Both the position numbers and the translations under genes were made by a program. Below the pieces are notes generated by a model. The model made no database searches, was not told the origin of the DNA, and saw only the letters and a list, made by a program, of their open reading frames with translations. Positions 8,452 through 28,561 of a stretch of DNA of 55,060 nucleotides are shown here, one piece after another. Positions within the stretch are counted from its first letter, which is position 1. Each line of letters opens with the position of its first letter. Source of the stretch: Candidatus Firestonebacteria bacterium RIFOXYD2_FULL_39_29 (GTDB taxonomy: Bacteria; Oederibacteriota; D2-FULL-39-29); NCBI GenBank assembly GCA_001778375.1, contig MFGV01000045.1:1-55060 (forward strand), written 5' to 3'.

Positions 8452-8495
8452 GGTCTCCTCGGGTTCGGTAGAACTTTTCCTGATTCTACAGCTAT

Positions 8496-8524
8496 ATTAT
8501 AGCAAACGCTGTGCCAGTTGTCAA
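8496..8524 (-). promoter_or_regulatory. Near-consensus sigma-70 promoter of the giant repeat gene
   Basis: Read on the minus strand: -35 TTGACA (8524-8519), 17-bp spacer, -10 TATAAT (8501-8496). The start point would be near 8489, giving a leader of about 38 nt before the ATG. Both hexamers match consensus exactly, the strongest housekeeping promoter in the window. Confidence 0.85.
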
Positions 8525-8613
8525 CAAATACATAGAAATTTGTTATTGTACTGATTCCTAAATACTTCTACGATATTTTTAAAGTAATACTTTAACACAC
8601 CTACCCCTATTTC

Positions 8614-8651
8614 TATGGATTCTCTTCCATACATATGGATTCCTTTCCATA
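8614..8651. promoter_or_regulatory. Two tandem 18-bp dyads, possible operator
   Basis: TATGGA-N6-TCCATA occurs at 8614-8631 and again at 8634-8651, a centre-to-centre distance of 20 bp, about two helical turns. A related dyad, ATGGAA-N4-TTCCAT, lies at 8839-8854. The tandem pair is about 90-130 bp upstream of the -35 box of the giant repeat gene. Spacing and symmetry suit a dimeric regulator bound to one face of the helix. The regulator is unknown. Confidence 0.45.
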
Positions 8652-8929
8652 CAAGCGATATCATCCCCTAAATACAACTTTACAAACCTTAAAAACCTTT
8701 TATAATGGTGACAGTCACCGCAAATGCGTTATAGCATAAACTTTTTCTAGTTTTTAGATTTTTTAGACAAAACCTCACCTAAACCCCAATTGTAGCTGCT
8801 TGCAGATAGCACCAGCATCCAAAGCTTCAGCAATCACAATGGAATGGTTTCCATATCGCTATTTAGCCTATAATAATCAGTGTTATTCAGCTATTTTCTC
8901 CGTGTTTTAGTTATTAATACATTCCGTTG

Positions 8930-9001
8930 TCTATAAGCAAAACTTTTCTCGATATGTAAGATATATACATGCCAACATCCGTTGACAAAACGAGATAAAA
9001 G
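8930..9001. repeat. 72-bp dispersed palindromic element, copy 1
   Basis: The core 8943-9001 matches 28625-28683 at 56 of 59 positions, and the match extends left to 8930 with one small indel. The element folds on itself: an outer stem pairs CTTTTCTCG with CGAGATAAAAG, and an inner one pairs GCCAAC/GTCAAC with GTTGAC around ATCC. It has the size and shape of a REP/MITE-like unit. Confidence 0.7.
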
Positions 9002-9103
9002 TCCGTAAGGTCTAAGGTCCATAAAGTAAAATCTTAAAAATATTTTTTAAGATCAAATACCTAAAATATATCAATACCACCTCTAAAAATAACCTTATAA
9101 ACC

Positions 9104-9376
9104 TTACAAACCTTTTCTAGCCATCTTTCTCTCGACCCTATGTCCTATAATTCTAAGCTTACCTTTTGCATCGCAGCCAATTACTACATATGACAGATAA
9201 TCCTGTCCTAAATGATCGTCAATTTCACGTTTTACCCAAATTCCGTAGTTATTTTTGTCCGATAGCACCATTTTTAATAGCTTCTGCACCTCATTCCTGT
9301 CAACCGGGATTCCGTGTTTTAACCTATCCACCAGGAAGTGAACTTCGTTTATAGAGTGAGGCACATGGCTGAGCAT
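9104..9376 (-). CDS. Small protein of unknown function, 90 aa
   Basis: I do not recognise this protein. The ATG at 9376 is preceded by GGAGG at 5 nt spacing; a GTG six bases upstream lies inside that ribosome binding site and is less likely. The protein is soluble and charged, with a helical N-terminal half and a C-terminal half predicted as beta (around IWVKREIDDHLG and YLSYVVIGCDAKGKLRIIG). The last three residues overlap an intergenic word repeat. It stands alone between the giant surface-protein gene and the AbiE pair. It could be a small regulatory or toxin-antitoxin component, but nothing in the sequence proves this. Confidence 0.55.
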   Translation of the reverse strand: MLSHVPHSINEVHFLVDRLKHGIPVDRNEVQKLLKMVLSDKNNYGIWVKREIDDHLGQDYLSYVVIGCDAKGKLRIIGHRVERKMARKGL

Positions 9377-9687
9377 AAGCACCTCCGGTGAAAACTATTC
9401 CACTGATTACAAAGCTACCGGATTCCACTGATACAAACTAGTTCTCTTTTGCTTCTTTCCTTTCGTCTGCTTTCTTTGCCGTACGTCCTGTTTTCTTCTC
9501 CTGCTTCTTTTCCTTCACTTTCTTTACTTTTCCCACTTTCTCCACTTTTTTATTGAGCATTTTCCATGCCAGCTTCAAAACATATTACAAAACCTGAATT
9601 CTCGCCCTCGCGACCTCAAATACTGTGGAAGTATTTACATATAATGAGGAAGCAATTCCATATTATACCGATAAGAACCGATTGCTA
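9377..9687. other. Intergenic gap with a purine/pyrimidine tract and a 40-codon Lys-rich frame
   Basis: The word TTCCACTGATTACAAAGCTAC appears at 9398-9432 and recurs in other gaps. From 9441 to 9550 the plus strand is almost all pyrimidine. On the minus strand this gives an ATG-started frame (9560-9438) of 40 codons with about 17 lysines and no clear ribosome binding site. A similar tract lies at 40470-40535. I treat it as low-complexity sequence rather than a gene. Confidence 0.4.
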
Positions 9688-9743
9688 TTGACATAAGCGC
9701 ACATAATGTATATACTTACTAACAAGTAGTGCATATATGTGCG
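9688..9743 (+). promoter_or_regulatory. abiE promoter with overlapping inverted repeat
   Basis: -35 TTGACA (9688-9693), 17-bp spacer, -10 TATACT (9711-9716). The inverted repeat CGCACATA (9698-9705) / TATGTGCG (9736-9743) brackets the -10 box and the expected start point. AbiEi antitoxins are known to repress their own promoters by binding inverted repeats, so this is a reasonable autoregulatory operator. Confidence 0.65.
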
Positions 9744-9751
9744 GAGGTAAT

Positions 9752-10354
9752 ATGTCAATTAACACACAAAATATCTTAAAATTTTTTAAAGCTACTGGAG
9801 GAATAGCTAAATTTTCTGTACTAAGAAAAGCCGGGTTCCATCATGATACAATTAACGCTGTTGTAGCAGAAGATAGAGTAAAAATAATTTCACGCGGGAT
9901 ATATCAGCTGAGCGACCATGATATTGGAACATACCCGGATCTGGTTCTTGCTTCTCTTCAGTCACCGAAGGGAATTATCTGTCTGGCTTCCGCTCTTGCG
10001 TTTCATGAAGCAACAACCGAGATTCCCGGTTATGTGGAAATAGCTATCCCCGCACAGACACGAGCAAATAAAATTAAATACCCGCCGGTAAGATTTTACC
10101 GATTTGATGAAAATGCGTATAACGCCGGTATTGAAGAACATAAGATCGGATCACAAAAAATAAGGGTTTACTCTCTTGCCAAAACAATAGCTGATTGTTT
10201 TAAATTCAGAAGCAAAATAGGCATGGGTATTATCAGGAACGCCATGAAAACAGCAATAATGGAAAAAAATGTAAATCTGAATGAGTTGATAAAACACGCG
10301 AAAATTTGCCGGGTTGATAATGTAATTAAACCGGTCCTTGAGGCCATGCTATGA
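9752..10354 (+). CDS. abiEi: AbiEi-family antitoxin / transcriptional regulator
   Basis: This 200-aa protein has an N-terminal winged-helix region (LKFFKATGGIAKFSVLRKAG) followed by the AbiEi pattern of SRGIYQLSD, ALAFHEATTE and VRFYRF. In this type IV toxin-antitoxin family the antitoxin does not bind the toxin but counteracts it and represses the operon. I chose the ATG at 9752, which has GGAGGT 4 nt upstream; a start at 9737 would include the ribosome binding site. The gene ends in an ATGA overlap with the next gene, typical of abiE operons. A promoter with an overlapping inverted repeat lies just upstream. Confidence 0.9.
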   Translation: MSINTQNILKFFKATGGIAKFSVLRKAGFHHDTINAVVAEDRVKIISRGIYQLSDHDIGTYPDLVLASLQSPKGIICLASALAFHEATTEIPGYVEIAIPAQTRANKIKYPPVRFYRFDENAYNAGIEEHKIGSQKIRVYSLAKTIADCFKFRSKIGMGIIRNAMKTAIMEKNVNLNELIKHAKICRVDNVIKPVLEAML

Positions 10355-12909: not shown

Positions 12910-13887
12910 TTACTCTTTCGTCCATATTCTTGTATTTAAATTCAAATCTTCTACTATCCCTGTCAAAAGCGCAAGGTCATTATAATACTCCAGCACTACA
13001 TTAAAATCCAGAAGGGTGGTAAAAAGTTTGGGCTCGAAAAGGTTTTTATTATAAGAAAGGGCAATATAAACTTTTGAATCCACAAACGACATATGTAGAG
13101 GCCTTCCTGTTTTTTTCTTGAACTCCATTATTCTTTCCATTAAACTCGTAGAAAGGATGTATCTTGCAGTTACCTGGTTGTCACCGTAGACTGCGAACTC
13201 TTTTTCAAACTTCGGATCTTCAAGTTTTATCAGCTTTCCCCTCGTGAAATTATATTCCTGAAGCATCGTTCCGAGAAAACCAAACATTCTTTCAGCCGTA
13301 TCGGGAAGCACAACCGTAACACCGGCAAAAGTCTTATTAAAATCTGCGATAAAGAAGATACCTCTGAAAATAGTATGCCAGGTGGTACGGACATTCCCTT
13401 TACTGTCACGTGATTCCGTCTTATACTCCGAATGCACCTCTGAGAATTCTATCGCAGTTTTATCCAGTTTACCTCCGACATAATCCTCCCCTTTATACCT
13501 GTCGGGATTCTTCGGAAATATCCGGCTCGTCATATACTGTGACCCGGGAATACAGGACCCCTGGTCAAAAAAGAGGCTGTCATCAAAAAACTTAACAAGC
13601 TTTCCTATTATTTCACTTTTGAACTGCCGTTTGTAACTTTTCGATACAATATAATATACCAATGCAAATATTGCCGCACCGATTAGAACGGGAATAAACA
13701 CAAAATAGAGGCCTGAGTTCCCGGCAGAAGCAAGAATTATGAGACAAATGACAAGCACCATAACTGCTGTCACTGCTCCGGATATTCCTACAACACTGAC
13801 AATCTTTTTACGCTGCCTCTCCAGAGGAAGGAGAGATATATACAGTTTTTCCCTATAGAATATTTTTAACTCTTCAATACTTTTCAT
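12910..13887 (-). CDS. DUF3137 membrane protein
   Basis: The 325-aa protein has two transmembrane helices near residues 35-60 and 64-85, then a large domain with FRGIFFIADFNKTF and VVLPD, the pattern of DUF3137 (Galanin-like) proteins. Function is not known for the family. DUF3137 genes are often next to lemA, as here. I prefer the ATG at 13887, which gives a 4-bp ATGA overlap with lemA; a GTG nine bases upstream lies too close to the GGAG. The pair probably forms a small two-gene operon. Confidence 0.85.
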   Translation of the reverse strand: MKSIEELKIFYREKLYISLLPLERQRKKIVSVVGISGAVTAVMVLVICLIILASAGNSGLYFVFIPVLIGAAIFALVYYIVSKSYKRQFKSEIIGKLVKFFDDSLFFDQGSCIPGSQYMTSRIFPKNPDRYKGEDYVGGKLDKTAIEFSEVHSEYKTESRDSKGNVRTTWHTIFRGIFFIADFNKTFAGVTVVLPDTAERMFGFLGTMLQEYNFTRGKLIKLEDPKFEKEFAVYGDNQVTARYILSTSLMERIMEFKKKTGRPLHMSFVDSKVYIALSYNKNLFEPKLFTTLLDFNVVLEYYNDLALLTGIVEDLNLNTRIWTKE

Positions 13888-14444
13888 TTTTTCCACTGCT
13901 CCGCGACATTAATATTCTCCCTGCCTTTTTCCGTAATAGAAAAATAGTCACCTTCTTTAAATCCGAGAAGACCGGCGAGAATATTGAACGGGAACAGCAT
14001 AACCGCATTATTATAATCATTTACCGAGGCGTTATAGGCGCGCCTTTCGGCGGAAATTTGTTCCTCCACTTCATTAAGAGTTTTTTGCAGGTGCATAAAA
14101 TTATTACTTGCTTTTAACTCGGGATAACTTTCGGAAACAGCCATTATGCTTTTTAGAGTATTTCCCATTTCATTATCAATTCCTTCTTTTTCTTTTCCGC
14201 TTTTTTGTCCGGAGATTGCCGCAGACCTCAGTTTTGCTATCTCGGTTAAGAGCGCGCTCTCATGCTTTACATAACCCTTTACCGCTTCAACGAGATTTGG
14301 TATCAAATCATACCGCTTTTTCAAAAGCGCATCAATCGAGGCAAAAGCATTTTTCACCTGGTTCCGTTTTGTAATCAAAAGATTAAAAATAAAAACAACT
14401 GCGACAAACAGAAGGCACAGCCCGATTATAAAATAATTACCCAT
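13884..14444 (-). CDS. lemA: LemA family protein
   Basis: This 186-aa protein has one N-terminal transmembrane helix (about 3-24) followed by a long helical domain with the LemA hallmark KKRYDLIPNLVEAVKGY and, later, AERRAYNASVNDYNNAV. LemA proteins are membrane-anchored helical-bundle proteins of poorly defined envelope role. The ATG is preceded by GGGGGTTAA. It overlaps the DUF3137 gene by ATGA, and an 86-bp gap separates it from the end of the ExbB/ExbD gene unit upstream. Confidence 0.92.
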   Translation of the reverse strand: MGNYFIIGLCLLFVAVVFIFNLLITKRNQVKNAFASIDALLKKRYDLIPNLVEAVKGYVKHESALLTEIAKLRSAAISGQKSGKEKEGIDNEMGNTLKSIMAVSESYPELKASNNFMHLQKTLNEVEEQISAERRAYNASVNDYNNAVMLFPFNILAGLLGFKEGDYFSITEKGRENINVAEQWKK

Positions 14445-14530: not shown

Positions 14531-15598
14531 CTATCTCTCCCTGTCAAAAGTTGTCTCTTTTTTTTCAGGAATGAATTCTTCATACTTTACTTCATATTTA
14601 TAATTGGAAGGCATTATTTCCCCTTCATAAACTATATTAAATTCCTTTTCCGCCTTTGAATAAATGGATTCGTTAAATTTATATGTTTTGAGAAGCGCTT
14701 CGTTATTTTTACCGGTCAAAAGAGAGTAGTAGACCGTCACGTCCCTGATAGAAAGCATTTTACCGTTTCTTATCCTGGCCTTGACTTCCAGCGAACCCGG
14801 TTTTTTTAAAAATCTGCATTTTGCCACTTCGACCTCTTCGCCTGCAGTAAAACTACCGTACTCGATATCCCCAAAATCATATTGTTTATCTTTGGCCTGA
14901 AACGAATCGACTAATACTTTTTCTTCCTTCAGTACCGAGTATTTTATTAACACCTGATAGCTTGTATAATCGGGAAGATTATTTATCTTAATATTATAGG
15001 TCTTTGTTTTGCCTTTCCCTATTTTACCGTCTTCAAGCAAAACATCCTTTTCCTTCATAAGTTTTCTTTCAACATTAAGAAACTTTATATTAAGGGTTAA
15101 ATCTCCGGCATCTGATTCACCGCTGTTTCTCACTATGCATTTAAGATACCCATTCTCATCTATATATTGGCTTAAAATGGTTATTACCGCTTCGTCTTTT
15201 TTTTCACCGTCCTGCTGCGGAGGGTTAAACAGGTCTGAACCGTGGAAAATAATCTCTTTTTTTCCTTTTTTATCGGAGTAATTTATCTTTAGATCATAGA
15301 CTTCAAAATAAGGACAACCTTTTATATTTATATTAAAATCTTTTTTTGAATTTACATATATATACGGCAGGATAACAGGGTCGGACTCTTTTAAAACTTT
15401 CAAATCCCTGTCAAGAACTACAAGCTTTATACTGACATCCCGGAAACTGCTTTCGAAATTACTTCCAATACTGCCGCTAAAAAATACCTGATGTTCAAGT
15501 CTTGATCTTGCTACAGATATATTGGATACCTCTATACCGGCTTCACAGAAATTATTAGCCTCAAGGAATATAAATAATAGTATAAACAATTTTTTCAT
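14531..15598 (-). CDS. Secreted multi-domain beta-sandwich protein, last gene of the ExbB/D unit
   Basis: I recognise no exact family. Residues 1-20 form a signal peptide (likely cut after CEA). The remaining 335 residues are rich in beta strands and look like three successive sandwich domains. The middle one (YLKCIVRNSGESDAGDLTL) resembles CARDB or FxLYD-type domains, which occur in surface and periplasmic binding proteins. It ends the nine-gene unit 42 bp after the second exbD. Probably a periplasmic or outer-membrane-facing partner of the motor; no enzyme motif is visible. Confidence 0.6.
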   Translation of the reverse strand: MKKLFILLFIFLEANNFCEAGIEVSNISVARSRLEHQVFFSGSIGSNFESSFRDVSIKLVVLDRDLKVLKESDPVILPYIYVNSKKDFNINIKGCPYFEVYDLKINYSDKKGKKEIIFHGSDLFNPPQQDGEKKDEAVITILSQYIDENGYLKCIVRNSGESDAGDLTLNIKFLNVERKLMKEKDVLLEDGKIGKGKTKTYNIKINNLPDYTSYQVLIKYSVLKEEKVLVDSFQAKDKQYDFGDIEYGSFTAGEEVEVAKCRFLKKPGSLEVKARIRNGKMLSIRDVTVYYSLLTGKNNEALLKTYKFNESIYSKAEKEFNIVYEGEIMPSNYKYEVKYEEFIPEKKETTFDRER

Positions 15599-15640
15599 CA
15601 GACACTTCTTTCTTGTAACTTTAAAATTTCAGGGCGAATG

Positions 15641-16042
15641 CTACTCGGACACAAATGAAATATTCTTAATTCCGCTCTTTGCGCATAAATTCAAAACATC
15701 AATGACTTCCTGATAAAACACTGAGTCTCTTCCTTTTATGGATACAGATACGGTATCTGCAACAAGTGAAAGACCTTCTAATGTTCCCGCAAACACGCTA
15801 AGATCCTGCTCTTCATCATTAACTATCAGTTTTCCTTTTCCGACAACTTCAACATTCATAGCGGTAAAAGCATCCGTATCAGCCGCAGATTCCTGAATAA
15901 TAGGCAATACAGCATCAAGTTTCAGCTCATCTTTAACCAGTTTGCCAAAAGTCATGTAAAATATCAGGAGCATGAGTATTGTATCAATGAGAGGGATTAA
16001 TTCTATCCTGCCTTTTTTCAAAGCTCTTCTGGCTATTCTCAC
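15641..16042 (-). CDS. exbD: ExbD/TolR-type motor protein (second copy)
   Basis: The 133-aa protein has the standard plan: a short cytoplasmic N-terminus (KKGRIELIPLIDT), one transmembrane helix with the conserved protonatable Asp (PLIDTILMLLIFYM) and a periplasmic domain to the end. ExbD/TolR dimers couple proton flow to work on a TonB/TolA partner. Start is GTG with AAGGAG at 5 nt spacing. The periplasmic part is clearly different from the first copy, so the two probably form a heterodimer or serve two partners. 12 bp follow the previous exbD. Confidence 0.9.
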   Translation of the reverse strand: MRIARRALKKGRIELIPLIDTILMLLIFYMTFGKLVKDELKLDAVLPIIQESAADTDAFTAMNVEVVGKGKLIVNDEEQDLSVFAGTLEGLSLVADTVSVSIKGRDSVFYQEVIDVLNLCAKSGIKNISFVSE

Positions 16043-16054
16043 GTTTACTCCTTT

Positions 16055-16465
16055 TTACTCACTCTCTAAAGTCGCAAAAGTAATATTTGATATTCTGTTT
16101 CTGGAGCATAACCCCAGTATCTTTGATATTTCCCTGTACTGAAGCTTGGTATCCCCTCTGACCGCTATTGACATTTTCGGATTCTGCTTCATGTAACCGT
16201 TTATAAGTTTTTCCAGGGAATCCAGATCATATTTTTCTTTATTGACCAGGATCTGACCTGAAACAGGAATATTAATAATTAACGCATCGGGAGCTTTTTT
16301 CCACTTACTGGCCTCTGCAGCAACCGGAAGCTTAACGCCATACTCAAGCTCCATTTCGGCAAATGTCGAAAAACTCATATAAAAGATCAGAAGTATCAGC
16401 ATTGAGTCAATCATAGGGATCAACTCTACTCTGCCTTTTTTTACAGGTCTCCTCTCAAATCTCAT
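16055..16465 (-). CDS. exbD: ExbD/TolR-type motor protein (first copy)
   Basis: A 136-aa protein with the same layout as its neighbour: KKGRVELIPMID, a transmembrane helix with the conserved Asp, then a periplasmic domain containing MSIAVRGDTKLQYREI, typical of ExbD. I chose the ATG at 16465 (AAGGAG 5 nt upstream); a GTG at 16471 overlaps that ribosome binding site. It follows exbB by 15 bp. Two consecutive exbD genes after one exbB are seen in several bacteria, and the pair here is diverged enough to be functionally distinct. Confidence 0.9.
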   Translation of the reverse strand: MRFERRPVKKGRVELIPMIDSMLILLIFYMSFSTFAEMELEYGVKLPVAAEASKWKKAPDALIINIPVSGQILVNKEKYDLDSLEKLINGYMKQNPKMSIAVRGDTKLQYREISKILGLCSRNRISNITFATLESE

Positions 16466-16480
16466 TAGCACTCCTTAGTT

Positions 16481-17314
16481 TTATTGTACAGGATTCGCGC
16501 TTGCTTCTCCTGTGCTTTCCGGTTGTTTTCCTGCTTCTACTTTGAACTCCTCTAATCTTAAAAGAAGCAAGGTAACATTTTTTTCAATACTCATCAGGAT
16601 CTGTTCTTTTCTTCCGTTTAATAAATTATAGCAAAACAAAGACGGGATAGCTACTGCAAGTCCACCGGCTGTGTTTATCAGAGCTTCAGCGATACCGCCT
16701 GCCAAAAGCTCAGGTTTACCCATACCGACAGAAGCAACGACGTTAAACGATCCGATCATACCTATAACGGTACCAAGTAACCCAAGAAGCGGGGTCAGGG
16801 TAACCATGGTATCAAGTTGAGGAAGCCGTCTTTCCATGCCTATTGTTTCAGACAGTATCTGAGCTTCAATTTCTTCTTCCATTTTCTTTCTGTCAGAGCC
16901 TTTTTCATACTGCACCAAAGCTACTTTTACGACCCTTGGAAGAGCACCTGTAGTTCTATCACAAAGTGTCATTGACATTTTTATATTTGACGTTTTCATA
17001 AGAGCATCAATAAATTTCTTTTCTTCCTTTACAGTAGCATTTTTAAAATACGTAAACCTGTCAAAGATAAGCCCTACTGCAAACATAGAACAAATCAGTA
17101 TTACTGCAAAGATCGGACCGCCGCCCTTAATAAACTGGAAAAAGGTCAGTTTTTTTTGTCCTAACCCGTCACCGCCGGCTTTTCCGTCCTGGGCATTTTC
17201 TATACCCGCGCCATCGGCTTTTGCCTCCTGAGCATTTACCATACTTGAGAACTGCAAACAAAGAAACAATGCAAGTATGCTCATTACTATAAAACTTATT
17301 TTTCTGTTAAACAT
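16481..17314 (-). CDS. exbB: ExbB/TolQ/MotA-type proton channel
   Basis: This 277-aa protein has a cleavable-looking signal peptide (1-28), a short Gly/Ala-rich periplasmic segment, then the usual three transmembrane helices: GGGPIFAVILICSMFAVGLI, and the conserved pair TLTPLLGLLGTVIGMI and AEALINTAGGLAVAIPSL. The conserved channel Glu (AEAL) and Thr residues are present. It forms the pentameric channel around the ExbD helices. The signal peptide is an addition over E. coli ExbB but is known in other phyla. AGGAGG precedes the ATG. It is placed between the TPR gene and two exbD genes. Confidence 0.9.
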   Translation of the reverse strand: MFNRKISFIVMSILALFLCLQFSSMVNAQEAKADGAGIENAQDGKAGGDGLGQKKLTFFQFIKGGGPIFAVILICSMFAVGLIFDRFTYFKNATVKEEKKFIDALMKTSNIKMSMTLCDRTTGALPRVVKVALVQYEKGSDRKKMEEEIEAQILSETIGMERRLPQLDTMVTLTPLLGLLGTVIGMIGSFNVVASVGMGKPELLAGGIAEALINTAGGLAVAIPSLFCYNLLNGRKEQILMSIEKNVTLLLLRLEEFKVEAGKQPESTGEASANPVQ

Positions 17315-17337
17315 TTTCCTTCCTCCTTTAGTTATTT

Positions 17338-20136
17338 TTAATTCTTTATTTTAAATTCGGCGTCTTTCTTGTATTTTCCATTAGGATATCTTTGAATTAA
17401 TGCCTCATAGTACTTTTTTGCATCGTCCTTCTGTTCTAAAAATTCTGCGCACCTCCCTGCCTTAAACAAAGCTTCTTCCGCAATATCCTTATAGGCCGCA
17501 TAAACAAACGCGACTTTTGCATACTGCGTCAGCGCTTCTTTGTACTTGTTTAATTTAAAATAACTGCTTGCAAGCTTATAAGTACTTTCTGCCGCCGTTT
17601 TTCCCCGGGCCTTATTAATAGACTTTTTGTAATATTTTATCGCCTCTTCCATATTTCCTTTATCAAAATTAACTTCAGCGAGCACCAGACTTATCTCCGG
17701 CAGGGAGTTCATATCTTTAAATTTTACCATAGGCTTTTTCAAGAACTCATAAACATCACTTGCTTTTTTTCCCGAATCAAGCTGATGGTAAGCTATTCTT
17801 GCATAAATATACGGCAAAACGCCATCATCAGTATACCTCGATATTGCCTCGTTGTAAAGTGTAAAAGCTTCTTTTCCTCTATCTATGGACTCTAAATTAC
17901 TTGCAACAATATAATAATTCCTTGCAGAAAAATACTCTTTTGGTATGCTATTACTTACCTCTCCCCACAATTTCAGCGCCTGCTCCACCTTCTTTTGCCT
18001 GAAATATAAGTCTATCATTGCCATTTTTATTTTACCGAGTAAAGTATTATTGTTTTTTTTCTTTTCAGCAAATTTAGTAAACCTGGCAATTCCTTCATCC
18101 AGCGCCTTCTGTCTTGCATAGATCTCTGCCAGTCTGTCCAGACTGGTATCTACTATTGCGTAGTCGTTCACCTTGTCAACCAGATCTTCATAGTCTTTTT
18201 TAGCTTTCTCAAATTCTTTTTCGGAAAAATTATATTCCGCAATTTTGAATTGTATCTTTCTTCCAATTTCTGTATCATTCCACTTTTTAGCCTCATCAAA
18301 ACTTTTATATCCCTGTTCTTTTTTGCCGTCAGTAATCAAACTCCAGCCAATCCAGTAATACGCTTCCGCGCAATACGGACTATCAGGATAATCTTTAAGC
18401 AGTATCTCATACATCTTTGACATATCTTTATATTTTCCTTGTTTATAATAAAGATCCCCCATTTGAGTCCTTATTCTCGGAGATGCAGGAGACTTGGGAT
18501 AATCTTCCAATGCTCTTTCATATATATCGTAAGCTTCTTTATATTTCTGATCAGCCATATAAATATCGCCTATGGAAGAAAACACATTTGGACTCATCTC
18601 ATCTTTGGGATATTTCTGGACAAATAACTTTAAATACTCTACCGCTTTTACATAGGCGCCTTTTTTTCCGTATGAAAAACCAATCTGATAGAGCGTATTT
18701 TTATAGTACTCTTCCTGCGGATACTCATCAATTATTCTCTGATAGGAAGCATTGGCTTTATCGAATTCCGATAAATTGTAATATGCATTCCCCTGATAAA
18801 ACAAAGACCACCCGGTGAACAAGCTTTTTTCCTCTTTTTTTATTATTCCTTCAAAAATATTCGAAGCTTCATTGTAGTCTTCCAGTCCATAAAAGGCCAG
18901 ACCTATCTTATACAGACCCTCATCTTCTATCTTTTTTGTATTAAACTTCAGCAGTCCGCTCTTGTACTCCGAAACTACGTCACTGTAATTCTTGGATTTT
19001 AAAAGAGAATCGATATAACCAAGCCTAATGTTGTCTCCCAATTCGGTATCCGCATTCTCTTTTATGAACTTTTGCGCATTTCTTTTGAACTCCTCGGTTT
19101 TTCCTTCAAGCAAATAGCTTACCGCTATGGCATAACTTGCATCCTTCACAAGATCGCCTTTGGGATCAAGAGTCAGAATCTCATTGAAACTTTTTCTTGC
19201 CTCTTCAAACTTTTTCAATTCGACAAAACACTGACCAATCTTGAGTTTGCTTAAAAAAGACGGATCCTTGCCGGCTTTAGCATTCTCCAGCGCTTTTTTC
19301 AAATCAGTTTCTTTCTTTTTTAAAAGACCTATAGCTTTTTCCATACCCGGAGCTCTTGTTTTCTCTATACCTTTGACCTTTTTAGAAACTTCATCTATTT
19401 GCTTTTGTATCGCAGCTAAGGTTATATCTTTGCCGGGAACTTTATTAAAGAAAATAATAGCATGTTCATAGCTTTTTGCCGCAACTAATTGATCGGCAAT
19501 CTGATATATGATATTTGCTATCAGCGGATTTTTCCTCATATCCGCAATTTTACTTTCAAATATCTTATTTGCCCCTGCCGGATCTTTTTCATCAACAAGT
19601 ATTCTTGCGAGTAATAACTCGGCATTATCCAGCATCTCATGTCCGGGAAATCTGTTTATTAAATATTTAATTGTTTCCTTGGCTTTTGAATTGTCTTTTT
19701 GGATAAATTGAAGGTTAGCTATGGCAACATACAGCTCCGGGGATCCGCCGGCTATTGCCTTATTGCCTCTTTCATAACTTGCCATCGCCTTGTCATAATC
19801 TTTCTGGTCTATGTAGCATTCACCCAGTGCCGTATAAATCATTACTTTCATATCCGAATTAAGTTTGCTCAATTCTTCAAGTTCTTTTATCGCTTCACCA
19901 ACTTTTTTTTGCATAAAGTAGCAGATAGCAAGATCGTATTTTACATAAGGAATGAGCTCGGACTTGGAAAAGTCCGTCAAGAATTTTTGATACGCAGCTT
20001 CGGCTTTTGCATACTCGCCTTTTGAAGCTAATTCCGAGGCTTCTTTGTACACCGCATCAGGCCAAATTATCTCATCCTTAGCTCTTAGATTTGCAATAAA
20101 CACAAAAAACAAAATAACAGAAAGAATTATCCTCAT
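17338..20136 (-). CDS. Large secreted TPR-repeat protein of the ExbB/D unit
   Basis: Residues 1-19 are a signal peptide (cut after LRA). Most of the remaining 913 residues are tetratricopeptide repeats of about 34-37 residues, for example KSELIPYVKYDLAICYFMQK and FYQGNAYYNLSEFDKANASY. A charged, coiled-coil-like insert lies near residues 240-300. Pairs such as YPKSPASPRIRTQMGDLYY resemble YfiO/CpoB-type outer-membrane TPR proteins. Tol systems also carry a TPR protein (YbgF/CpoB) next to the motor, so an envelope scaffold role is likely. It lies 8 bp after the HEAT/toroid gene and 23 bp before exbB. AAGGAG precedes the ATG. Confidence 0.85.
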   Translation of the reverse strand: MRIILSVILFFVFIANLRAKDEIIWPDAVYKEASELASKGEYAKAEAAYQKFLTDFSKSELIPYVKYDLAICYFMQKKVGEAIKELEELSKLNSDMKVMIYTALGECYIDQKDYDKAMASYERGNKAIAGGSPELYVAIANLQFIQKDNSKAKETIKYLINRFPGHEMLDNAELLLARILVDEKDPAGANKIFESKIADMRKNPLIANIIYQIADQLVAAKSYEHAIIFFNKVPGKDITLAAIQKQIDEVSKKVKGIEKTRAPGMEKAIGLLKKKETDLKKALENAKAGKDPSFLSKLKIGQCFVELKKFEEARKSFNEILTLDPKGDLVKDASYAIAVSYLLEGKTEEFKRNAQKFIKENADTELGDNIRLGYIDSLLKSKNYSDVVSEYKSGLLKFNTKKIEDEGLYKIGLAFYGLEDYNEASNIFEGIIKKEEKSLFTGWSLFYQGNAYYNLSEFDKANASYQRIIDEYPQEEYYKNTLYQIGFSYGKKGAYVKAVEYLKLFVQKYPKDEMSPNVFSSIGDIYMADQKYKEAYDIYERALEDYPKSPASPRIRTQMGDLYYKQGKYKDMSKMYEILLKDYPDSPYCAEAYYWIGWSLITDGKKEQGYKSFDEAKKWNDTEIGRKIQFKIAEYNFSEKEFEKAKKDYEDLVDKVNDYAIVDTSLDRLAEIYARQKALDEGIARFTKFAEKKKNNNTLLGKIKMAMIDLYFRQKKVEQALKLWGEVSNSIPKEYFSARNYYIVASNLESIDRGKEAFTLYNEAISRYTDDGVLPYIYARIAYHQLDSGKKASDVYEFLKKPMVKFKDMNSLPEISLVLAEVNFDKGNMEEAIKYYKKSINKARGKTAAESTYKLASSYFKLNKYKEALTQYAKVAFVYAAYKDIAEEALFKAGRCAEFLEQKDDAKKYYEALIQRYPNGKYKKDAEFKIKN

Positions 20137-20144
20137 ATTTCTCC

Positions 20145-22514
20145 TTAATATAAATCTATAATACTCTCCTGCATTTTTTTTAACTGCAAGATAGAGATAT
20201 AAAAATCCGCGGCTAAAACCGGTTCATACCACTTTGCGGACCAGCTGCCGTCTTCTAATTGTTCCTTCATCAATTTTTCCACCAATTCCTTATAGTAATA
20301 ATGTATATTATTATCCTTATCGGTTATAGTATCAAGCCCATACAGATTAAGCGACTCTGCTAATGCTTTCAAATAATAAGGATAATGCTTGTCGGATTTA
20401 GCTTTTGGATTCTCTTTCAAAGTATAATTTTTAGATAACCAGTCTATTGATTTTTTTACTTCATCAGAAGAAAGAGGTTTTTTAAAAAGTGATTGCAGAG
20501 AAAGTCCGACAGCAGTCATTGAACCGTATGAGCTCCTTGTGGTTTCATTGTCATCGGCATAACCAAAACCGCCGTCCTCATTCTGATGATTCTTCAAATA
20601 ATCCAGCATCTTTATCCACATCTCGTCGTTTTTTTGGATATTCAAAAAATTATATCCTTCTTCCAGTCCCTTGGCTACATTTTCTGTTGCGCTCATATCA
20701 GCCCGGCTTCCTTTATAGTAGCCGAACCCGCCCTCTTTGTCCTGAATGCTTTTCATAAATTCAACAGATTTTTTCACTTTTTCTTTATATACAGGATTAC
20801 CTGTCTTCGAAAGCACTTTTATAGCCATTCCTGTAAGGTATGAAACTTTTTCTTTTTCCACTTCATTATTCGAGAAATAGGAGCCATCCGCTTGTTCGTG
20901 TTTAAGCATGAAATCCACTGCTTTTTTCACCGGCTTATCTTCTTCACTCCATCCCTGTTTAAACAATACCAGAAGCGCCATTTGCGTGGCGCCTAAAGGA
21001 AAATATGCGCTTTTAAAACTGCCATTTTCCTCCTGCTGTGAAAGTAAGAACCTTATACCTTTCCTTATAGAAGCTTCTTTGCTTTGTTCAAATACTTTTC
21101 CGGTAGTTAATGTAAAATTCAAAGCAAGTAAATCCAGCTTTTCCTGTTTCTTTTTTATAATACCGGAAGTTATCTCGTCATAATTCATCCTTTCTATATC
21201 AAGCGCAGCAGCAGCAGCGGAACTGACCCATAAATCTTTGTCCTCCAAAAGTTCTTTGAGTTTTAAAATATCCTGTTTTTTAAAATTCTCACCCAAAGCT
21301 TTTATGGCAAACCATCTTACGGTAACATCCTTATTCAAATCTCCTGCTATAGCCAAAAGAAGGTCTTTAACCTCGCTAAGATTAAATTTACCCAGGGCAT
21401 AGACAGCTCTTTGCGCCACATTTTTATCCGTATCCGAAAGCATTTCCAGCAGTTTTTCTTTTGATTCTTTCGTCCGGTTATCACCAAGCAGGGAAATTAT
21501 CTCGTATCTCACAAGAGGGCTCTTGTCGGAAGCAAGGCTGAATAACTTCGGAAAAAGTTTTTCGTCCTTCAAATCTACAAGCAATTTTACGGCGATTAAT
21601 CTTACTTTATCATCCTTATCTGCGAGAGAAGTCAGGAAAAGGTCCTTTACTTCCTGACTCATCGGTTTGATCATGCTTAATGCCGTAAAAACATACCACT
21701 TTATATCAGGTTTATTTAAAAATTCTATCAAAGGCCTGACGGCTTTCTCTTTAAAATCATGAGCCAATACTTCCGCGGCTTTTTCCCTGACCTTAAACTT
21801 GCCTTCGTAATGGCTATAATACGCATCAGAAAAAGTTTCTATAATGTATTTTATGGATGTTTCATTACCTATGCTGCCTAAAGCTTCCAGGGCGGATATT
21901 TTCAGCGAAGGCCTTGAAGTATTAAGAATCTCAATCAAATATTTTTCCGCGGCTTTTTCCTTGTTTTTTCCCAGTATGCCGGCTGAAAAACAGGCCCGGT
22001 AAATATTAATGCTGTTAAGCGCTTTTATCAAAGCATCCGTATTGCTTTTAGATATTTTTTGAAGTTTTGCTGCAGCTTTATTGCGGATATTGTAATCATC
22101 GGATCCCAGTTCTTTTATCAATAAATTTGTAAGCTCGTCGCCGGAATAGACCTCTTTTTCCTCTTCTTTTGCCTGCCATGCCGAGGTTTCAAGCAGAACT
22201 TTATACCTTGTCTCTATCTTTTTATAATTTACGTCATCTTTCTTCTCTTTGTAAATCTTCATAAGCTCTGCATATGCTTCCGGAAATGTCGAATCATAGA
22301 AGTCAATTATCTCTATTAGCATTCTTTCGGCTTCTGCGAGGTTTTTCTCTTTTTTATTCAATCCTTCAAGGACGATATTAAAATGCCATCTGGCTTCTTC
22401 ACGGTAATCTATCTCGGGCAGAACCTGTTTCACATCCTCTGATGCGCTTTTTTCTTTTGCCTGAATACTGCAAGCCAGAAATAATACTAAAAATAATAAT
22501 ACTGCCTTTTTCAC
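20145..22514 (-). CDS. Secreted HEAT-repeat protein with C-terminal squalene-cyclase-like toroid
   Basis: This 789-aa protein starts with a signal peptide; the segment FLACSIQA could be cut after QA or at the Cys as a lipoprotein. Residues about 35-115 look TPR-like, and 125-455 are HEAT repeats (LIKELGSDDYNIRNKAAAKL, VRYEIISLLGD). Residues about 475-789 form an alpha/alpha toroid of the prenyltransferase/squalene-cyclase type, with QW-like turns QQEENGSF, QADGSYF, QDKEGGFGY, QNEDGGFGY and QLEDGSWSAKWY. The cyclase acid motif DxDD is not seen, so a binding rather than catalytic role is likely. Start is GTG sharing its G with the upstream TAG stop; AGGAG lies 5 nt before. It belongs to the ExbB/D unit. 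Confidence 0.85.
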   Translation of the reverse strand: MKKAVLLFLVLFLACSIQAKEKSASEDVKQVLPEIDYREEARWHFNIVLEGLNKKEKNLAEAERMLIEIIDFYDSTFPEAYAELMKIYKEKKDDVNYKKIETRYKVLLETSAWQAKEEEKEVYSGDELTNLLIKELGSDDYNIRNKAAAKLQKISKSNTDALIKALNSINIYRACFSAGILGKNKEKAAEKYLIEILNTSRPSLKISALEALGSIGNETSIKYIIETFSDAYYSHYEGKFKVREKAAEVLAHDFKEKAVRPLIEFLNKPDIKWYVFTALSMIKPMSQEVKDLFLTSLADKDDKVRLIAVKLLVDLKDEKLFPKLFSLASDKSPLVRYEIISLLGDNRTKESKEKLLEMLSDTDKNVAQRAVYALGKFNLSEVKDLLLAIAGDLNKDVTVRWFAIKALGENFKKQDILKLKELLEDKDLWVSSAAAAALDIERMNYDEITSGIIKKKQEKLDLLALNFTLTTGKVFEQSKEASIRKGIRFLLSQQEENGSFKSAYFPLGATQMALLVLFKQGWSEEDKPVKKAVDFMLKHEQADGSYFSNNEVEKEKVSYLTGMAIKVLSKTGNPVYKEKVKKSVEFMKSIQDKEGGFGYYKGSRADMSATENVAKGLEEGYNFLNIQKNDEMWIKMLDYLKNHQNEDGGFGYADDNETTRSSYGSMTAVGLSLQSLFKKPLSSDEVKKSIDWLSKNYTLKENPKAKSDKHYPYYLKALAESLNLYGLDTITDKDNNIHYYYKELVEKLMKEQLEDGSWSAKWYEPVLAADFYISILQLKKMQESIIDLY

Positions 22515-22960
22515 TACATCTCCTTTTGCTTGTTTATTTTAAATATTACATAAGCAGATGTCGAAGAGAAAATAAACAGGCTGACTATAACCATGACTGT
22601 GAGCCCCATATATAAGGCAACATCCTCATCATTCAAAAAATCCAACCCGCCGAACAGATATGATCTTATAAATAAAAATCCCGCAAGTAAAATTAAAATA
22701 GCCGCTCCCTGCAAAGTAAGGATTATGGTCAATTGAATATTTATTTTCTTTTTGCCGATAGAAGAGCTAATACTCGTAAAATCCTGCTGCTTACCCAGAA
22801 ATTTAAGCAAATCATCTTGAGTTATAAAATTCATTTCCACAAGAACATCTCCGAGCCTTTTTTCTATACTGGTTTTCTGCCTTGCAACAGCCTTTTCTAA
22901 TTGATCCGGAGTTATCAGATTTTCCTGAACAAGCATATCTCCTAAATGTTGTTTTGCCAT
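22514..22960 (-). CDS. Small membrane protein with MshEN/T2SSE_N-like domain
   Basis: The 148-aa protein begins with two helical halves: HLGDMLVQENLITPDQLEKA, then RLGDVLVEMNFITQDDLLKF. This is the repeated RLGxxL pattern of MshEN domains, found at the N-terminus of PilB/GspE ATPases and, in some, binding cyclic di-GMP. No ATPase follows. Instead there are two transmembrane helices (about residues 76-100 and 113-143). The first Arg is replaced by His and the usual Gly by Asn in both halves, so nucleotide binding is uncertain. GGAGG precedes the ATG. The gene lies between the HEAT genes of the ExbB/D unit and could be its cytoplasmic sensor. Confidence 0.75.
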   Translation of the reverse strand: MAKQHLGDMLVQENLITPDQLEKAVARQKTSIEKRLGDVLVEMNFITQDDLLKFLGKQQDFTSISSSIGKKKINIQLTIILTLQGAAILILLAGFLFIRSYLFGGLDFLNDEDVALYMGLTVMVIVSLFIFSSTSAYVIFKINKQKEM

Positions 22961-22978
22961 AAAACGCCTCCAAGTATT

Positions 22979-23755
22979 TTACTTTTTTTCCTTCTTTTTT
23001 GATTCAATCAGCAAGACGCCCCTGAAGGCAACCTGCCTTATGAGCTCGTCATCATCATTTTTTGAAATATATTTCAGTCTTTTATATGATTCTTCATCGG
23101 CAAGATTGCTCAAGACATTCACGCAGGCACCGCGGATTGTCTTGTCACTTGCCGCAAGGCCCTCGCGTATGATAGATACATAGCCCAAATCCCCTGTTGC
23201 CGCAAGCATAGCGGCCGAATAGATCCTTACATCTTTATTCCTGTCTTTAGTCAGAGCTCTTACAGTTTCCAAGCCGGAAGAATCTCCAAAACTGTTCAGT
23301 GAAACGGCTGCCGCAGCTTTAACCATTGAATCCTTATCGCTCTGCATCAAGACCCTGAGAGCAGGAATGCATTTTTTCTCACCAAGGATGGCCAGGCTGC
23401 TTGCAGCCGATGCCCTCACCACTCCAAATTTATCTTTTAAACCCAGTATAATAATGTTAGTTATGGAAGGCTTGTCCTGCAAAAGCGACAATGAACTGAT
23501 CGCCGCCGCTCTCACATTTTCATCCGGGTCTTCAAGTAACTCCCTGATAGACGGCAGCGCCGAAGTATCACCCGCAACTCCCAAAGCCATACAAGCATCC
23601 TGTCTTATAAAACTGTCCGGGCTTTTCAGCTCTGTTTTAAATTTTTCAAGATTGGCCTTGTATTCTTCCATTTTCTTGTCAAAATTTACGTCAACCTGAG
23701 CAAAAATACTGAAGCAAAAAACAAAACCAAAAATTATTCCGGGCATTTTTCTCAT
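22979..23755 (-). CDS. Secreted HEAT-repeat protein
   Basis: Residues 1-19 are a signal peptide (cut near FAQ). About six HEAT/PBS-lyase-type repeats follow: SPDSFIRQDACMALGVAG, DENVRAAAISSLSLL, FGVVRASAASSLAILG, DSMVKAAAAVSLNSFG and NKDVRIYSAAMLAATG. Such repeats form curved solenoids for protein binding; no catalytic motif is seen. The start overlaps the upstream stop by ATGA, so it is translationally coupled to the TonB-like toroid protein. Presumably a periplasmic adaptor in the ExbB/D machine. Confidence 0.85.
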   Translation of the reverse strand: MRKMPGIIFGFVFCFSIFAQVDVNFDKKMEEYKANLEKFKTELKSPDSFIRQDACMALGVAGDTSALPSIRELLEDPDENVRAAAISSLSLLQDKPSITNIIILGLKDKFGVVRASAASSLAILGEKKCIPALRVLMQSDKDSMVKAAAAVSLNSFGDSSGLETVRALTKDRNKDVRIYSAAMLAATGDLGYVSIIREGLAASDKTIRGACVNVLSNLADEESYKRLKYISKNDDDELIRQVAFRGVLLIESKKKEKK

Positions 23756-25179
23756 TTTTTTATCTCCTTTTCCGCGATCTGATATAAAGGGATGTACCTG
23801 TAATACACTTCAAGAGAAAGAACTACCATCGCTGTTGAATATGTAAGCGGAAGAGTTTTCTCCGTATAATTAATACGGGGAAGCTGTTGAAAACTTCCGT
23901 CTTCATTCTGAAGGGATACAATATAATCTCTGAATTGCTTGTTCCATCTTTCCCAGGTAGCTCCGCCTGCCTGGAACGAAGCCAGGTTCATGTAATAAAT
24001 CGTATAAAAATCAGTTAACCTGGAAATTTCCACTTTATCGATCTGCCGTATCAGATCATTCGCCAGGGGGGTTTTCATTTTATTTCCCAAAGCAAGACAG
24101 AATAAACCTACCCAGGGAAGCGGAGGACCTTTTCCATCTTTCAGATAACAGCCTTTTGTTTTAATTACAAATTTAATCGCATCATCCAAAGCCGTTTTCG
24201 TTTCAGCCGGCATTATTCCGGCATAGTAAGCATCCTTCAATGCCATAATACCCCAGCCTGTAACGGAAAGATCCGCATCAGTTGAAGCCGATCCATATCT
24301 CCATGCTTTTTCAAGATTGTTACCTTGAGCATTTAATACAAATTCAGTTGCTTTTTGTACATTTGTTTTGATACCGCTGGCTCCGCCGACTGAATATGCT
24401 TCTGATAGAGCAATCATATCAATAAAGTGAGTATACATAGAATTTTTATTCGGAGTCCCAATCCCGCCGCTTTCATCCTGCTGGTTAACTAAATAAGACA
24501 CGGCGTTTCTTAAGGTCTTCGCATATTTATGAGGAGAATCTACCCTGTAACCGGCTCCAAGAAACGCAAGAGTACAGAGGCCTGAGATCCCGTTAGTCGT
24601 ATTTGCGCAGCTTCCCATGCCATATTTTTCTTTGCCTTCCCATGAACCGTCAGCTTTTTGTACTTTAAATAAGTATTCAAGTCCTTTATTTACCGCTGCT
24701 TCTGTCACCGGCGATCCGCCGTATTTTTTCGCCATTTCTGTCCTGTTCATCCTGGCAGAAAATATACCTATACCTGCTCCGATACCTTTACCAATACCGG
24801 TGCCCATACCGCCGCCCTCACCGCCTCCGGCTCCGACAATATCCAGCGGCTTAATGGCAGCAGCGGTTGATTTAGTTGAATCTGCAATCTTTGTGTTAAT
24901 GACGACTTTCGCATCAGTAACTTTGATCTCTTGCTTTGCCGTTGAAGGAATATCCACGGGTTTTGAAGTCGGAAGTTGTTTTTGTGTTTCCCACTCCGGC
25001 GTCTCTGCCTTTCCGCCGCCGCCCATCTGAAGGATACCTCTAAAAACTGTTTTTCTCATTGTCGGATTTACTATAACTATCCCGCTGACTAAAAAGAGGA
25101 TCAGAAGGTGCGCCGTGAAGGAAACAAAGAAAAACTTTGATTCTTTGATCTTTTCTTTAATTTTTTTCATTAGACCCAT
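23752..25179 (-). CDS. TonB-like anchored protein with C-terminal alpha/alpha toroid
   Basis: First gene of the ExbB/D unit, 475 aa. Residues 1-15 are cytoplasmic and basic; one transmembrane helix (about 16-37) contains S20-x3-H24 (SFTAH). TonB proteins carry an SxxxH signature in this helix that contacts ExbB/ExbD. A linker follows with a Pro/Lys/Thr-rich part (about 50-110) and a Gly-rich part (112-140), as expected of a periplasm-spanning protein. Instead of a TonB C-terminal domain, residues about 155-470 form a squalene-cyclase-like toroid with QKADGSWEG, QDESGGIG and QNEDGSFQQ. No DxDD acid motif is visible. GAGGAG lies 5 nt before the ATG. The architecture suggests that proton-motive force is delivered to a toroid-binding partner. 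Confidence 0.8.
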   Translation of the reverse strand: MGLMKKIKEKIKESKFFFVSFTAHLLILFLVSGIVIVNPTMRKTVFRGILQMGGGGKAETPEWETQKQLPTSKPVDIPSTAKQEIKVTDAKVVINTKIADSTKSTAAAIKPLDIVGAGGGEGGGMGTGIGKGIGAGIGIFSARMNRTEMAKKYGGSPVTEAAVNKGLEYLFKVQKADGSWEGKEKYGMGSCANTTNGISGLCTLAFLGAGYRVDSPHKYAKTLRNAVSYLVNQQDESGGIGTPNKNSMYTHFIDMIALSEAYSVGGASGIKTNVQKATEFVLNAQGNNLEKAWRYGSASTDADLSVTGWGIMALKDAYYAGIMPAETKTALDDAIKFVIKTKGCYLKDGKGPPLPWVGLFCLALGNKMKTPLANDLIRQIDKVEISRLTDFYTIYYMNLASFQAGGATWERWNKQFRDYIVSLQNEDGSFQQLPRINYTEKTLPLTYSTAMVVLSLEVYYRYIPLYQIAEKEIKK

Positions 25180-26665: not shown

Positions 26666-28561
26666 TTATCTGTTATTTTCCAGCGTGTTCTTTTTCATCA
26701 GATAATAAGCAGCTTTGTTCGGGAACCCTCTGCTTGCAAACATTTCAGAGTTCATCTTGAGCAACTCTACTACTTTAGCCCTGGAATCTTTTGTGTTTTT
26801 CCCCGCAAAACGTTTGTTTTGCAGCAATACGCCGTCATAATACTTCTTTGCCATATCATAATTCTTTTCGGAAAGCTCCGCAAGCCGCCCCATGCTGATT
26901 AAGGCTTCCATATATGTAGGATAAATACTAAGGGCTTTTTCAAACATCAAAGAAGCATCGCTGTAAAACCGGTTTTTCAAGTAAAACTCCCCCTGCATAG
27001 TCATTGCCCAAGCATAATGCTCCAGTGTCATTTTTTCCCTTTCATAACCTGGAGAGTTTTTATCCGTGCCGCTTCCGTTTAATCCCTTATAGGAAGACCA
27101 GAGAGCGTCAACTTTCACTTTATCATATATGGTTGTCACGCCTTTTTTTTCAATCCGGTACATCATTCCAAAAGGGGCAATTTCATGTTCCGTCCATAAA
27201 GCGCTTTCGAAAGGAAAGTAATTTAAAAAGATATTTTTCTTCCCATAATTTTGTTTTAAAAATTCCGGAAGCACCAGCATATTACCCGGAATTATCTCAA
27301 TACTTCTGTCGTAACCCTGCGCAAACTCAAGGTACCAGAGGGAAAATATCGGCAAGTCCCCGTTAACGACCACCACGGAATCTTCCTCCACGGTCTTTAA
27401 TATATTTTTTCCGAAATTATAATCTGCAAAATAGTTCTTCATGTCAACTGTAGCATAATTACCGGGAATAAAAGAAATAGCGAATACAGAAAAACCGGCA
27501 TAAGCGTATTTTTTATATCTCCCAAGATTTGCCATAAGCCATTTAATACCAAAGGCCATGATCACCGCCGCCGAGACAAAAGAGGCAAAATAGTAAGTTG
27601 CAATATTTTGAGGGTCTACAATATTGTAATTTACAAACAGAAAGGTGTTAACAACTATCACACCGAGGAGAAAATACCCTATTCTTGCTCTCTCAATATA
27701 TATACGCCATAGACCGAGAAGTAAAAGTAAAAACCCTCCCGGAGTAAATTCATTCACATAATTTTTAATCAGATGCAGATAAAGTTTTTTAAAAATAGAT
27801 ACAGGCGCCGCCGTGAACATTGCATACCGGTAGTCCTTCGCAGAGATATGATTAATTATTTTTTCTATCGTATCCGGGGTCCCCCATTTCAAAGGCGTTG
27901 CAGAAGCGCGGAGCGGCAAGTACAGGTAAAGAAGTAAGGGAAGTAAAAAAAGCAGGGAAAGAAAAAGCCATTTTTTAGGATTATAACACTTCTTTCCGGT
28001 TAGAAATAAAAGGAATAGTACAGGTAAAACAAAAGCAACGATGGCAAGGTGGTGAGTGAGAGCCAATCCCAGAATGAAAACAATCAGTGGAATTGTTTTT
28101 TCTCTCAAATTAACCACAAGCCATATCAAAAGCGCCGCAAAGAAAGCGTAAAGAGAATATTTTTCCGCAAATATTGAATACGCCCAAAACGTAACGGAAA
28201 ACGCAAGCATCAAAGAAACAATAGCTGAAATAAAGCTGCTCTTTAACAGCCTCTTGACCGAAAAAAACACCAAAATCACAGCTAGAGCCCCGAATAATGC
28301 CGACATCAGATTATATCGAAACGCTATCTCCGAAACAGGCATAAACGAAAACGCTTTTCCAATAAGCATATAAAGAGGAAACCCCGAAGGGTGCGATATC
28401 CCCAGAAGATACGAAGCCGTAACCATATCCCCCGAATCCCTAAAACCTATTGTGGGGGCAAGCGTTAAAAGGTAGACCGACAAGATGAATACGAATAGGA
28501 CTGGAGCTATTAACTTGTTAATCAGCATACTTGTTACTGCAGGTTTTTTCCTTTTTTTCAT
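26666..28561 (-). CDS. DUF2723 membrane glycosyltransferase-like protein with TPR tail
   Basis: This 631-aa protein starts with a DUF2723 domain: a first helix followed by LAPTIGFRDSGDMVTASYLL and ISHPSGFPLYML. The acidic residues in the first loop and the HPxGxP motif are features of GT-C type glycosyltransferases. About nine transmembrane helices extend to near residue 350. A soluble part follows, with TPRs near the C-terminus (EALISMGRLAELSEKNYDMA). DUF2723 proteins are thought to transfer sugars from lipid carriers to proteins or lipids. A paralogue lies at 32952-35267. The gene belongs to the glycolipid block with GT9, LPLAT and LpxK. Confidence 0.85.
   Translation of the reverse strand: MKKRKKPAVTSMLINKLIAPVLFVFILSVYLLTLAPTIGFRDSGDMVTASYLLGISHPSGFPLYMLIGKAFSFMPVSEIAFRYNLMSALFGALAVILVFFSVKRLLKSSFISAIVSLMLAFSVTFWAYSIFAEKYSLYAFFAALLIWLVVNLREKTIPLIVFILGLALTHHLAIVAFVLPVLFLLFLTGKKCYNPKKWLFLSLLFLLPLLLYLYLPLRASATPLKWGTPDTIEKIINHISAKDYRYAMFTAAPVSIFKKLYLHLIKNYVNEFTPGGFLLLLLGLWRIYIERARIGYFLLGVIVVNTFLFVNYNIVDPQNIATYYFASFVSAAVIMAFGIKWLMANLGRYKKYAYAGFSVFAISFIPGNYATVDMKNYFADYNFGKNILKTVEEDSVVVVNGDLPIFSLWYLEFAQGYDRSIEIIPGNMLVLPEFLKQNYGKKNIFLNYFPFESALWTEHEIAPFGMMYRIEKKGVTTIYDKVKVDALWSSYKGLNGSGTDKNSPGYEREKMTLEHYAWAMTMQGEFYLKNRFYSDASLMFEKALSIYPTYMEALISMGRLAELSEKNYDMAKKYYDGVLLQNKRFAGKNTKDSRAKVVELLKMNSEMFASRGFPNKAAYYLMKKNTLENNR

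Follow-up and report, generated by a model that had tools for sequence, protein, structure and literature searches.

A predicted toroid-headed TonB-like arm in a candidate Ton/Tol-type motor operon of a Candidatus Firestonebacteria genome

Ton and Tol motors have been known through one family of C-terminal transducer domains, to which Williams-Jones et al. (2025) added von Willebrand factor A (vWA) heads (PMC12204202). Those transducers, from the Planctomycetes-Verrucomicrobia-Chlamydiae (PVC) group, combine an SHLS-bearing TonB/TolA-like anchor and a disordered linker with a non-TonB head and are encoded downstream of a TPR gene, a tolQ-like gene and two tolR-like genes; their function is unknown, and further kinds are expected (PMC12204202). 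In Escherichia coli TonB, Ser16 and His20 touch ExbB in cryo-electron microscopy structures and the His is essential, while the Leu/second-Ser half of the SHLS motif is less well conserved for Ton (PMC12215075); the D-box is the ExbD-binding motif of TonB (PMC10907165). The Myxococcus AglR-AglQ-AglS complex comprises one TolQ-like and two TolR-like proteins, acts with TPR proteins, and contacts the TonB-like GltG through AglR (PMC3169522). Here we describe an operon in a stretch of 55,060 nucleotides (the window) of contig MFGV01000045.1 (assembly GCA_001778375.1, Candidatus Firestonebacteria bacterium RIFOXYD2_FULL_39_29), whose first gene, tor1, is predicted to encode a TonB-like transducer with an alpha/alpha toroid as its head.

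The operon consists of nine intact open reading frames on the minus strand, transcribed from 25179 to 14531 in the order tor1, HEAT, MshEN, HEAT-toroid, TPR, ExbB, ExbD1, ExbD2 and a secreted gene of unknown family, with successive spacings of -4, +18, -1, +8, +23, +9, +12 and +42 bp (Table 1). An earlier note made from the DNA letters had described nine co-directional genes with gaps of 42 bp or less, encoding a full proton motor beside solenoid and toroid proteins. The reading-frame coordinates confirm this layout, and Pfam and NCBIfam searches recover the two HEAT proteins, the TPR protein, one ExbB, two ExbDs, the MshE-type protein and toroid-type repeats in two proteins. As far as can be read from sequence, the motor is complete and its key residues are intact in ExbB, ExbD1 and ExbD2: the two ExbB threonines align with TolQ/ExbB structures and are conserved across an alignment of 26 ExbB-family proteins, and Asp22 of ExbD1 aligns with TolR Asp23.

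Compared with ExbB-ExbD-TonB, the operon shares ExbB and ExbD with motor residues, an SxxxH transmembrane helix and a linker; it differs in having two different ExbDs and additional TPR, HEAT and MshEN genes, and in lacking TonB_C. It resembles TolQ-TolR-TolA-TolB-Pal in its plan of motor plus transducer, and its ExbB and ExbDs score best against TolQ/TolR models, but it has no TolA C-terminal domain. A Pfam scan of the nine proteins found no TonB_C, TolB or Pal, as the earlier note had stated. The likeness to Ton/Tol systems drawn there also stands, with the correction that a transducer had been overlooked: the anchored toroid itself is the predicted TonB-like arm.

tor1 follows the three-part plan of TonB and TolA, with a short N-terminus ahead of a transmembrane helix, a linker and a globular head. 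In the AlphaFold2 model (35-row alignment; mean predicted local distance difference test score, pLDDT, 76.6), the toroid lies mostly above 90 and the linker below 50, so that a disordered segment is predicted ahead of the head. The toroid fold proposed earlier for this protein is supported by the model and by Foldseek, which matched the head to squalene-hopene cyclase, the methylmannose polysaccharide hydrolase MmpH, AprG, complement C3 and farnesyltransferase (FTase) with E values of about 1e-5 to 1e-4. At the sequence level, Pfam gave Pec_lyase at 2.5e-6, just above the cutoff, and SQHop_cyclase_C at 5e-5, with the cyclase models below cutoff; no match to TonB_C (PF03544/PF13103) was obtained in the Pfam scan. 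Among 13 aligned anchors only seven columns are invariant, and these include Ser20 and His24. The same SxxxH pattern occurs in the N-terminal helix of all three TonB_C proteins of this genome. Read from the sequence, tor1 does not carry the full SHLS motif, having Val at +7 and +11 from His24. Because it combines the TonB/TolA plan with the invariant Ser20 and His24, we read tor1 as TonB-like; on sequence and model, it is the predicted TonB equivalent of the operon, in which a toroid replaces the TonB C-terminal domain.

Linkage between anchored toroids and motor genes recurs in other genomes. A search of GTDB genomes yielded 80 loci with toroid relatives, from which, with misread starts set aside, 52 anchored and 23 secreted toroids were compared. 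exbB/exbD genes lie in the locus of 18 of the 52 anchored toroids and of none of the 23 secreted ones (Fisher p 8e-4, a guide only, since related species and short contigs are among those counted). The earlier note had mentioned such co-occurrence in Planctomycetes-like genomes and stated that the grouping would be accidental if homologues of the toroid and HEAT genes were never linked to exbB/exbD elsewhere. For the toroid gene, these 18 loci speak against an accidental grouping; for HEAT, and likewise for MshEN, no such linkage was found in the loci examined. The linked loci belong mainly to Kiritimatiellae, Lentisphaerae and Verrucomicrobia; genes of this kind also occur in named species, among them Chthoniobacter flavus and Pontiella sulfatireligans. 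In the three groups the frequent order is TPR-TPR-exbB-exbD-exbD-toroid or TPR-exbB-exbD-exbD-toroid. In the window, TPR-exbB-exbD-exbD is contiguous and tor1 stands at the start of the operon.

SxxxH is present in the helix of 37 of the 52 anchored toroids. In the same loci it occurs in 1 of 158 hydrophobic segments at the N-termini of other proteins, and composition shuffles give 6%. A D-box-like strand follows the helix in 11 of the 18 toroids linked to exbB/exbD, in 2 of the 34 unlinked ones and in 1.4% of background windows.

Contigs C5, C83 and C41 of the genome encode three further anchored toroids, with no exbB in the DNA examined. The anchors of the four proteins are 90-95% identical at the protein level, and the heads 51-70%. 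On the simplest reading, such anchors would have a common partner, most likely the motor of the window. A genome-wide search had flagged stop codons in two of the paralogues; both reading frames were found to be intact. A similar contrast between anchor and head is seen in the tandem pairs of loci L172 and L176 and in one pair of L173, and not in L035. The tandem anchored toroids of L172 (G183:C1, near 1344700-1347900) have identical anchors that lack SxxxH.

As to origin, the anchor is present in only 1 of 45 Firestonebacteria genomes, the present one, and the four heads form one clade. Derivation of these heads from the toroids of Firestonebacteria MoxR operons was rejected (approximately unbiased test, p 0.0007), whereas one common origin for the anchored toroids as a whole is compatible with the tree test (p 0.28). 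Since the anchor is confined to one genome and the heads do not group with the MoxR toroids of the phylum, tor1 was probably gained from outside it. The motor may have come from another source: no close homologue of the window ExbB was found in other genomes of the phylum, where the best-scoring match is 36% identical.

We take the operon to encode a Ton/Tol-type machine that transmits proton-driven force, with tor1 as its force arm, and put the probability of this reading at roughly two in three. In such a machine, ExbB and the ExbD1/ExbD2 pair would form the motor and convert the proton gradient into movement, while tor1, like TonB and TolA, would dock on ExbB by way of the transmembrane helix that carries Ser-x3-His. 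The flexible linker would extend into the periplasm and allow the toroid head to grip a periplasmic or outer-membrane target, which the motor would pull or remodel. Among the secreted proteins, TPR, HEAT and HEAT-toroid would probably be partners or adaptors on the target side, and the MshEN protein is a candidate switch dependent on cyclic di-GMP (c-di-GMP). The three other anchored toroids would probably serve as alternative heads for the one motor.

Several observations weigh against this proposal. SxxxH is absent from 15 of the 52 anchored toroids, and for 34 of the 52 the DNA examined holds no motor gene, many of the contigs being short. Related genomes enter both the SxxxH and the linkage counts, so that their p-values overstate independence. 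No clear D-box is evident in tor1 itself. At fourfold-degenerate sites, too, the anchors of the four toroids have diverged less than the heads, which suggests that gene conversion or an exchange of segments, on top of selection, accounts for part of the anchor identity and that constraint is not its sole source. Finally, in the ExbB tree the window protein forms a long branch with a weak affinity to the ExbBs of its own phylum, apart from the toroid-linked ExbBs. A grouping with the latter was not recovered, and the tree therefore lends no support to common descent of the whole operon.

The toroid might instead be a carbohydrate- or lipid-active enzyme or carrier that works near the motor, its anchor serving for tethering and assembly and force being of little weight. 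The nearest folds (squalene-hopene cyclase, MmpH and AprG) are enzymes, the closest matches include both carbohydrate-active and terpene enzymes, and the polar or aromatic residues Y249, H251, E260 and D303 are among those invariant across 35 toroids. The earlier note had favored binding over catalysis because both toroids lack the DxDD motif of squalene-hopene cyclase. Neither tor1 nor the toroid part of the HEAT-toroid protein has the motif, whose sole occurrence is at residue 299 of the latter protein, inside the HEAT part. This lack speaks against an enzyme, although, with enzymes among the closest folds, either binding or catalysis may be the role of the toroids. The anchor keeps the motor-binding Ser-His pair and the linked relatives have a D-box-like strand. 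As tethering would need neither, mere tethering is disfavored, and we regard this alternative as unlikely.

The presence of one TolQ-like and two TolR-like proteins raises a different alternative, namely a gliding or surface-transport machine that moves surface adhesins in the manner of Agl-Glt (PMC3169522). The parallel extends to the TPR proteins and the TonB-like coupler, and in the window the heterologous ExbD pair adjoins TPR and HEAT proteins. The operon differs from AglRQS-Glt in its toroid head, and the Pfam scan found no OmpA-like Glt component or adhesin in it, a genome-wide Glt/MglA search not having been made. The slot occupied by the toroid in related loci also accepts DUF4159, a domain that we do not know from gliding systems. 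Together these points make a gliding machine quite unlikely. A Ton system that serves TonB-dependent receptors in nutrient uptake, its TonB being unusual, would account for ExbB-ExbD, the TonB-like anchor and the three TonB-dependent receptor plugs encoded elsewhere in the genome, but it is very improbable given that the operon has no TonB C-terminal domain and that the genome holds three TonB_C proteins elsewhere, of which one belongs to a classical ExbB-ExbD-TonB locus and another adjoins a receptor.

The force-transduction reading gains breadth from relatives in which the same kind of anchor carries other end domains. A profile search with the anchor alone retrieved, in Chthoniobacteraceae-type genomes, toroids, vWA proteins (in L132 and L137) and, in L130 (8192-9511, minus strand), a DUF4159 protein (PF13709, 2.8e-25), all on similar anchors. 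Directly after exbB-exbD-exbD, locus L177 encodes a DUF4159 protein on a TonB-like anchor (8386-9957, plus strand; 7.5e-28). The same slot holds an anchored toroid in L136 and an anchored vWA-like protein in L180, the latter assigned by reading of the sequence, yet without a Pfam vWA call. Such relatives in other phyla suggest a family of envelope machines.

These head types recur in MoxR operons. On contig C81 of the genome that holds the window, a MoxR-DUF58-BatA-DUF4159-vWA-DUF4175 operon (L171, 6241-16344) contains no toroid, while four relatives (G002-G005) have toroid genes within or beside MoxR-DUF58-BatA operons. The MoxR operons thus have vWA and DUF4159, and in relatives toroids, in common with the motor loci; they differ in having no ExbB/ExbD in the DNA examined and in that their toroids are secreted, not anchored. 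We tentatively extend the proposal as follows, as a possibility to which we give somewhat less than even odds: one ExbB-ExbD-ExbD motor, present in several phyla, would take swappable TonB-like arms whose heads (toroid, vWA, DUF4159) share one stock with the periplasmic components of MoxR-DUF58-vWA operons. Distant arms would share the motor through their conserved anchor, so that it would serve several targets in the envelope, under c-di-GMP control in this lineage. Elsewhere in the genome, contig C46 (L129, 1318-4598) encodes in a row a membrane-type protein of 400 residues, a pair of ExbD-like proteins and a protein with TonB_C; the first has no PF01618 match, and the locus is possibly another odd motor.

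The PVC vWA-headed transducers are the closest described counterpart. tor1 differs from them in having a toroid as its head, and the present genome in having four toroids that share almost the same anchor, three of them away from motor genes. The main text of PMC12204202 does not mention toroid, prenyltransferase or squalene. We found no description of a TonB-toroid system in the literature, most subscription journals lying outside its coverage, nor of DUF4159 on a TonB-like anchor; within the literature covered, heads of the toroid and DUF4159 kinds appear to be new, as does the set of orphan arms. If the proposal is correct, the motor would be a general power unit with plug-in tools, among them toroids, DUF4159 and different heads on near-identical anchors. 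It also offers a functional hypothesis for DUF4159 proteins and for the toroid proteins usually named prenyltransferase/squalene oxidase repeat proteins.

Table 1. Predicted features of the operon, with window coordinates and the basis of each assignment (AF2, AlphaFold2; aa, amino acids).
Feature	Position	Strand	Basis
tor1, TonB-like transducer, 475 aa: transmembrane anchor, linker and alpha/alpha toroid	23752..25179	-	AF2, Foldseek
tor1 transmembrane helix, residues 15-37, KFFFVSFTAHLLILFLVSGIVIV	25069..25137	-	AF2 model and aligned anchors
SFTAH (Ser20-x3-His24), Ser-His half of the TonB/TolA SHLS motif	25108..25122	-	Anchor alignment
tor1 Gly-rich disordered linker, residues 53-141	24757..25023	-	pLDDT <50
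tor1 alpha/alpha toroid head, residues 144-461	23797..24750	-	AF2, Foldseek, Pfam
HEAT-repeat protein, 258 aa, signal-peptide-like N-terminus	22979..23755	-	HEAT_2 6.7e-33; N-terminus from sequence
MshEN-type c-di-GMP-motif protein, 148 aa, C-terminal hydrophobic segments	22514..22960	-	NF053729 1.9e-19
Secreted HEAT-toroid protein, 789 aa	20145..22514	-	HEAT_2 4.4e-36, SQHop_cyclase_C 1.2e-16
Secreted TPR protein, 932 aa	17338..20136	-	TPR families
ExbB, 277 aa; pore threonines T182 and T215	16481..17314	-	PF01618 3.2e-30
ExbD1, 138 aa; transmembrane Asp22	16055..16471	-	PF02472 1.7e-21
ExbD2, 133 aa; transmembrane Asp20	15641..16042	-	PF02472 2.5e-14; Asp read from sequence
Secreted 355-aa protein without family assignment, probably all-beta	14531..15598	-	No Pfam match; AF2

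The accessory genes are less widely shared. Among the loci examined, no exbB/exbD-toroid locus other than this operon showed the HEAT, MshEN or beta-rich genes, so the roles proposed for HEAT and MshEN follow from their membership in the operon. The MshEN protein scores above the NF053729 cutoff, matches MshE (5htl) at 9.4e-9 and has two tandem 24-residue RLGxx motifs (residues 5-28 and 35-58), the first with His for Arg; by sequence it fits the MshE N-terminal domain and is a candidate c-di-GMP receptor. The toroid assignment of the HEAT-toroid protein is above cutoff. One other Firestonebacteria genome encodes a full-length homologue with 45% identity, and in a related genome the nearest homologue lies upstream of a MoxR-DUF58-vWA operon. 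TPR proteins of like length precede exbB in eight other loci (L046, L047, L048, L054, L063, L074, L136 and L180). A profile of eight TPR proteins from exbB/exbD loci scored another TPR protein of this genome equally and was rejected as evidence of orthology; kinship across loci is therefore judged by position and length. For the last gene, which the earlier note had called a beta-sandwich, a single-sequence AlphaFold2 model (mean pLDDT 38.9, too poor for a fold search) consists of nearly all strands, which agrees at low confidence with an all-beta protein; the sandwich fold itself is unproven, with no family match.

Genes for LemA and DUF3137 (12910-14444, minus strand) lie 86 bp downstream of the operon on the same strand and may be co-transcribed with it. 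Further along the window, two TMEM260-like O-mannosyltransferase proteins (32952-35267 and 26666-28561, minus strand), one with a long TPR tail, flank lipid A genes, and an ECF-type sigma factor is followed by a zinc-finger anti-sigma/FecR/HEAT-repeat protein (42958-45487, minus strand).

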